In this document: one piece after another, positions 6,240-54,592 of the stretch | Position numbering within the stretch: the stretch's first letter is position 1 | Layout: every line of letters begins with the position of its first letter | From: Planctomycetota bacterium | GTDB lineage: Bacteria > Planctomycetota > JAJSAM01 > JAJVHW01 | Direction of reading: 5' to 3' | Assembly: GCA_024280885.1 (NCBI GenBank) | Contig: JAJRPF010000039.1 | Coordinates: 1 to 64,000, forward strand | Length of the DNA: 64,000 bases | Made by a program: the position numbers and the translations under genes | Notes under the pieces: generated by a model | Databases searched by the model: none | Told to the model about the DNA's origin: nothing | Seen by the model: the letters and a program-made list of their open reading frames with translations, nothing else

Positions 6240-6263
6240 GTTGCACGTGACTGAATTGGGCGT

Positions 6264-6353
6264 GGAATCAGGACACCTTCGGCAGAGTTCGGAGGTTGGC
6301 GTTGACTGTGCTGCCGCGTGCGCTCCGAACTCTGCCGAAGGTGTCCTGACTCC
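6264..6353. repeat. Long palindromic element, copy 1 (27 bp perfect arms, extendable to 31 bp with one mismatch; 28-nt loop)
   Basis: Arm TCAGGACACCTTCGGCAGAGTTCGGAG (6268-6294) is the exact reverse complement of CTCCGAACTCTGCCGAAGGTGTCCTGA (6323-6349). Confidence 0.95.
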
Positions 6354-6396
6354 GTATCGATGGGCCTCCCATCAGCCGTGCGGGTAGCTTGTCGGC

Positions 6397-51875: not shown

Positions 51876-51922
51876 TGTGCGCCTCCGCTGCGTAGCGTCC
51901 GGCGAGGGTAGCGTCGGAAACG

Positions 51923-51950
51923 GAGCCAGGACAGTTTCGGCAGAGTTCGG
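51923..51950. repeat. Solitary half copy (one arm) of the palindromic element
   Basis: gagccaggacagtttcggcagagttcgg matches the left arm of the 54495 copy except at one position (g to t); no complementary arm found nearby. Confidence 0.8.
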
Positions 51951-54421: not shown

Positions 54422-54494
54422 GGCTGCCTCCGCCACCGTGACCGTGAGAGGGTACAGAGTCGAGCGCGGTTTTTCGAGATGGAGGTGCGATAGC

Positions 54495-54582
54495 GAGCCA
54501 GGACAGTTGCGGCAGAGTTCGGAGGTTGGCATTCGCTGAGCCGATGCCGCTGCTCCGAACTCTGCCGCAACTGTCCTGGCTC
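54495..54582. repeat. Long palindromic element, copy 2 (30 bp perfect arms, 28-nt loop)
   Basis: GAGCCAGGACAGTTGCGGCAGAGTTCGGAG (54495-54524) vs CTCCGAACTCTGCCGCAACTGTCCTGGCTC (54553-54582). Confidence 0.97.
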
Positions 54583-54592
54583 CGTATTGCCG

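Follow-up and report, generated by a model that had tools for sequence, protein, structure and literature searches.

The palindrome located between positions 54488 and 54589 of the window (the whole stretch of 64,000 nucleotides from a Planctomycetota bacterium analysed here) is most probably a non-autonomous TIR dimer of the REPIN/MITE-like kind, moved in trans by a transposase of the TIRYT type. We assign to this reading, which is drawn from sequence comparison, a probability of about 0.8. The family to which the palindrome belongs appears to have expanded recently within a single planctomycete genome. We regard it as a novel offshoot of an already known type of selfish DNA, rather than as a new regulatory RNA. 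The sites of the family detected in the window are the following:

54488 to 54589, no strand assigned: complete palindromic element of 102 bp (tip, inner arms and loop), with a loop of subfamily A and NN = GT
54488 to 54522, plus strand: left arm CGATAGCGAGCCAGGACAGTTGCGGCAGAGTTCGG, 35 nt, obtained by palindrome extraction
54523 to 54554, plus strand: asymmetric loop of 32 nt with a small inner stem (AGGTTGGCATTCGCTGAGCCGATGCCGCTGCT), common to other copies
54555 to 54589, minus strand: right arm, repeating the left arm in inverted orientation, obtained by palindrome extraction
6258 to 6359, no strand assigned: second complete palindromic element, NN = CC, flanked by the LytB/IspH and short-chain dehydrogenase genes
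51916 to 51950, plus strand: solo arm (GGAAACGGAGCCAGGACAGTTTCGGCAGAGTTCGG) without partner arm, third site of the family in the window

The two palindromes exist as described in the initial annotation, and the inverted-repeat search recovers each of them with 28 nt between the arms: arms of 38 nt with 92% identity for the first (54487-54524/54553-54590) and of 31 nt with 97% identity for the second (6264-6294/6323-6353). The limits of the 102-bp element were set, for both copies, from the aligned copies. The initial coordinates (54495-54582 and 6268-6349) hold, except that the arms reach a few bases further, and the differences noted between the arms of the two copies (CAGTTGC versus CACCTTC) are exactly compensated. 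Only these two copies had been seen, the solo arm having been overlooked. The neighbours had been given as a BlaR1-like gene and a kinase gene, which can be specified further. The 3' end of a BlaR1-type Peptidase_M56 gene, past which BlaI is found, is 3 nt from the element, and on the other side the element precedes a Pkinase+FGE-sulfatase gene. Folded as single-stranded DNA, the window copy reaches -46 kcal/mol (z about -11) and the copy at 6258-6359 reaches -39 kcal/mol (z about -10), values equalled by none of 200 shuffles in either case. One arm by itself folds no better than shuffled sequences (z 0.02). The inner arm (54488-54522 and all other arms) also contains a direct repeat TTCGG-N5-TTCGG with a period of 10 bp, which reads TGCGG-N5-TTCGG in the window copy. 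This repeat could be a protein-binding site.

The family is dispersed in the genome of the window (G000, an assembly of 6.31 Mb in 74 contigs, 91.5% complete). The search with GGCAGAGTTCGGAGGTTGGC, allowing at most 3 mismatches, gave 25+31 matches against 1+0 for the reversed control, and the search with the arm gave 74 and 76 matches (about 150 arms) against none for the control, which excludes chance. The covariance-model search of the genome proposed in the initial annotation, built from 29 copies, displays 144 matches over both strands, that is about 72 places; this number is a minimum (150 candidates were scored) and the E-values of the model are rough. We extracted 70 full palindromes, a minimum for the genome, composed of a 35-nt arm, a loop of 30 to 33 nt and the inverted arm. 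Their loops fall into the subfamilies A (29 copies), C (22 copies) and B (19 copies). The asymmetric loop is common to the members of each subfamily, and hence whole elements have been copied. The arm ends read CGATACGG or AGATACGG, and the GTAG-type foot is absent. The boundary of the element is clean: outside it, only the first base is informative, and the flanks beyond contain no conserved pattern.

Additional GATACGG units, sometimes as 8-bp tandem repeats, directly adjoin the element ends in 17 of the 70 copies (L079, L273 and L081 among them). They concern 18 flanks, against about 0.5 hits predicted by base chance over 8.4 kb, and may be traces left where the tip was repeatedly cut and joined. 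In one variant (G000:C10:164347-164629; L110, L294), the arms are separated by some 210 additional bases that include a degenerate second inverted repeat. No transposase remnant was found inside the own palindromes, this 283-bp variant at G000:C10:164347 included.

The placement of the copies is almost always intergenic. According to our own gene calls, based on simple codon usage, 65 of the 70 copies lie clear of predicted genes, though coding regions make up 80% of the sequence retrieved. The 63 classifiable copies lie between tandem (37), convergent (19) or divergent (7) genes. Flanking gene 3' ends are at 25 nt or less in 50 of 75 cases versus 12 of 51 for the 5' ends (Fisher p = 2e-6). 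A T-run after the stem, the mark of an intrinsic terminator, was found in 0 of 70 copies; such a terminator was rejected on this ground, as the initial annotation had anticipated.

Close relatives nearly lack the family. In 60 relatives, the genome lists being drawn samples, the own-type arm is represented by a single weak match in a genome of the same genus. A few decayed own-type palindromes were detected in G004, which belongs to the same family as the genome of the window. In G005, from another family of the same order, the covariance model detects palindromes with the same outer tip and a different inner arm. The exact own-arm pattern gave 0 matches in the named genome collection. Of the 38 stretches that the paired tips TACGGAGCCAGG-N42-72-CCTGGCTCCGTA recovered there, 37 bear the label Planctomycetota or that of a group inside this phylum, and one has no label. 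The same tip pattern has 0 matches in viral contigs. Exact paired tips are present in 6 of 393 genomes of the phylum, G000 having the most (45) and G005 having 10. The tip is kept from genome to genome, and the inner arms differ by genome and change entirely between genera. The search of relatives for an empty site around the window copy gave matches to paralogous kinases and a BlaI/BlaR1 relative in G004, and no orthologous spacer.

The stem shows covariation in the larger alignment that the initial annotation had asked for. The alignment of 29 copies contains 97.5% of standard pairs and 39 double-change cells, a number reached by 0 of 500 shuffles but inflated by the relatedness of the copies. 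In an inverted repeat, pairing and two-ended identity give the same signal and are inseparable. The strongly polymorphic arm sites among the 70 copies are the positions 11, 19-20 and 27 (numbered from the first arm base, with the outermost bases set aside). The two arms are concordant in 67 of the 70 copies at position 11 (48.2 expected by shuffling), in 62 at positions 19-20 (22.9 expected) and in 39 at position 27 (38.7 expected); these permutation tests ignore the shared ancestry of the copies. The outer positions 1-6 are near independence. At position 27, the 31 mismatched copies have no overall strand preference for the wobble-type mismatches (16 versus 15 copies). Eight different concordant dinucleotides occur at positions 19-20, and subfamily A alone has seven of them, which requires repeated paired change. 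These positions lie where the tip shared by the phylum meets the inner arm proper to each lineage, and their neighbours are near-invariant. We tentatively raise the possibility, rather doubtful at present, that this dinucleotide is a fast-changing, symmetric specificity code that would have to be identical in both arms, unlike position 27.

The strong, covarying stem and the proximity of the copies to the preceding stop codons would suit a structured RNA, i.e. a hairpin kept for a role in the mRNA, for instance because it stabilises the 3' end, marks a processing site or terminates the gene before it. This explanation is nevertheless unlikely. In addition to the missing T-run, no match to Rfam 15 at the gathering score was found in the window, the sequence of the inner stem is replaced wholesale between genera, and 7 of the 63 classifiable copies lie between divergent genes. 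The mismatches at position 27, in 31 of 70 copies and without preferred strand, likewise argue against it. A structured RNA, one of the two possibilities put forward initially, is thus not needed as prime explanation, and a secondary effect of the copies on transcripts is possible.

The compensated differences could also be a mutational by-product, if quasi-palindrome correction by template switching homogenises the arms with no selection on pairing. The arms indeed differ less within elements (2.0 differences on average) than between elements (3.5). However, position 27 is fully independent only seven bases from the matching dinucleotide, and positions 1-6 are almost so. Homogenisation as a block would have equalised all these positions, which counts against this mechanism unless position 27 mutates unusually fast. 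Since position 27 is independent while positions 11 and 19-20 match strongly, the arms were not equalised as a block; whole-arm homogenisation during copying, also suggested in the initial annotation, was consequently rejected, and we hold quasi-palindrome correction in general to be quite improbable.

The interpretation as a TIR dimer is supported by the transposase genes of relatives. In this order, most Y1_Tnp genes have inverted arms on either side. In six genomes, arms sharing the tip flank, in inverted orientation, a Y1/HUH gene for a "REP-associated" transposase. In G005, the arm of the dispersed palindromes, TACGGAGCCAGGCTCCCTTTCTTCACC, is found on both sides of a Y1_Tnp gene (L098 445-1452) whose product matches the Pfam family Y1_Tnp above cut-off, with a weak HTH_23. 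In G396 (SJ175), the arm TACGGAGCCAGGCTCCACCCCCGC of its dispersed palindromes likewise borders a Y1/HUH gene on both sides, and related tips do so in G402, G004, G001 and G397. The tip-type transposase proteins contain the HUH and Y...NP motifs. Of three proteins scanned with Pfam Y1_Tnp, one is above cut-off and two are just under, two having a weak HTH_23; the NCBIfam model of REP-associated tyrosine transposases gave a below-cut-off match in the two of them scanned with it. Concerning the own arm type, G004 contains arms (TACGGAGTCAGGACAGGTTTTCCGGAGTTCG) very close to those of the window around a transposase remnant that has kept residues about 1-32 and 95-141 and lacks its middle. This remnant points to an origin by internal deletion. 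Many partial transposase copies were also observed in the G004 contigs C17, C24, C45, C84, C91 and C78, several reduced to N- and C-terminal ends and some near inverted arms.

Profile searches of the window's assembly, which is 91.5% complete, did not find a transposase gene with own-type arms; the active source may be lost or unassembled in this genome. Two Y1 genes were detected, both with other repeats, in addition to fragments. One (G000:C6:33920-34246; L094, L111) has an unrelated 38-bp inverted arm, CACAGACCGGGTCGGCCTTGGGGCC, and the other, in the region G000:C10:49000 (L112 4218-5709), adjoins direct repeats of 129-284 bp. The fragments of the tip-type gene adjoin arms of a related type, such as TACCGTGCCAGACTC. 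A second arm type (TACCGTGCCAG[AG]CTCnATT.TCGG-like) lies beside N-terminal transposase fragments at G000:C59:81727-81986 (L218 1928-2187) and at L219 1094-1309, and a type related to it flanks genes in G001 and G004. The link to a transposase suspected in the initial annotation thus exists, but with TIR-type (TIRYT) genes and not with classical GTAG-REP genes. The dispersed, non-coding and REP/MITE-like character that it had proposed for the family is borne out.

Domesticated protein-binding sites for chromosome organisation or replication, spread by selection and not by transposition, would account for the strong conservation of the arm from copy to copy and for its TTCGG-N5-TTCGG repeat, but they are hardly credible in view of the near-absence in relatives, the copying of the whole element with its loop and the arms flanking transposase genes.

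Under the TIR-dimer reading, a TIRYT-type element, in which a Y1/HUH gene lies between long inverted arms, would have lost its interior by deletion, so that its two terminal arms were joined; the resulting element would then have multiplied in this lineage. When single-stranded, for instance at the replication fork, the DNA of the element would fold into one long hairpin. A TIRYT-type transposase acting in trans would read the conserved tip (TACGGAGYCAGGACA), as recognition site, together with the paired arm, cut at the element ends and insert the strand at a new site, in most cases close behind a gene.

TIRtrons have been described together with their TIRYT proteins and with TIR repeats, which form moderate families and in many cases occur as dimers (PMC3733652, 2013). 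The planctomycete system resembles them by its Y1/HUH genes between long inverted arms in relatives and by arms also dispersed as dimers, and it differs by the absence of the matching gene from the window's assembly. The published common TIR motif is GGGGWSAS (PMC3733652), whereas here a TACGGAGYCAGG tip is conserved in Planctomycetota and the inner arms are exchangeable. The family fits the description of TIR dimers: its approximately 150 arms are largely arranged as inverted dimers (at least 70 palindromes), and tip-sharing arms flank Y1/HUH genes in relatives, with the same arms as the dispersed palindromes in G005 and G396 and related arms in the other four genomes. For the own arm type, this association is represented by the G004 remnant alone, and an intact transposase cognate to the arms, which the genomes of such families usually but not necessarily contain, was not found in the assembly. 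As in REPINs, in which compensatory changes are common (PMC3116915, 2011), an inverted doublet forms a hairpin, is intergenic and displays compensatory changes, and a transposase in trans is proposed, as for RAYTs. Unlike REPINs, the inverted repeat is continuous over 35 nt; the single arm does not fold and the GTAG foot is absent, so the family falls outside the definition of a REP.

Most TIRYTs belong to the TnpA-Y1 subclass 2.1, in which REP-like sequences were not found, and most have an HTH-like C-terminal region (PMC6006769). The planctomycete proteins resemble the subclasses 2.1 and 2.3 of the same survey by their length, their HUH and Y...NP motifs and the lack of a typical REP, and their weak HTH_23 recalls the HTH tails of subclass 2.1. 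However, their motifs T-H-[YF]-H and YIDxNP match no row of the published TnpA-Y1 motif table exactly (PMC6006769). A search of the literature on REPs in Planctomycetes yielded general surveys only (PMC3733652, PMC6006769, PMC3116915). The elements are also similar to generic MITEs derived from DDE transposons, being small, internally deleted and bordered by terminal inverted repeats. DDE-type MITEs derive from DDE transposons and have target-site duplications.

The reading as a mobile element explains a feature that could otherwise be mistaken for a new RNA. If the code at positions 19-20 is real, it could mark a step in which the transposase recognises both ends, or exchanges strands between them, and whose specificity turns over rapidly. 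The tip with its exchangeable inner arms and the site-specific matching of the arms suggest which bases are read by the enzyme. For the TIRYT class, one survey reported no REP-like repeats (PMC6006769) and another only moderate families (PMC3733652); the present family, naturally occurring, large in number and of recent expansion, offers data on this little-studied class of HUH transposases.
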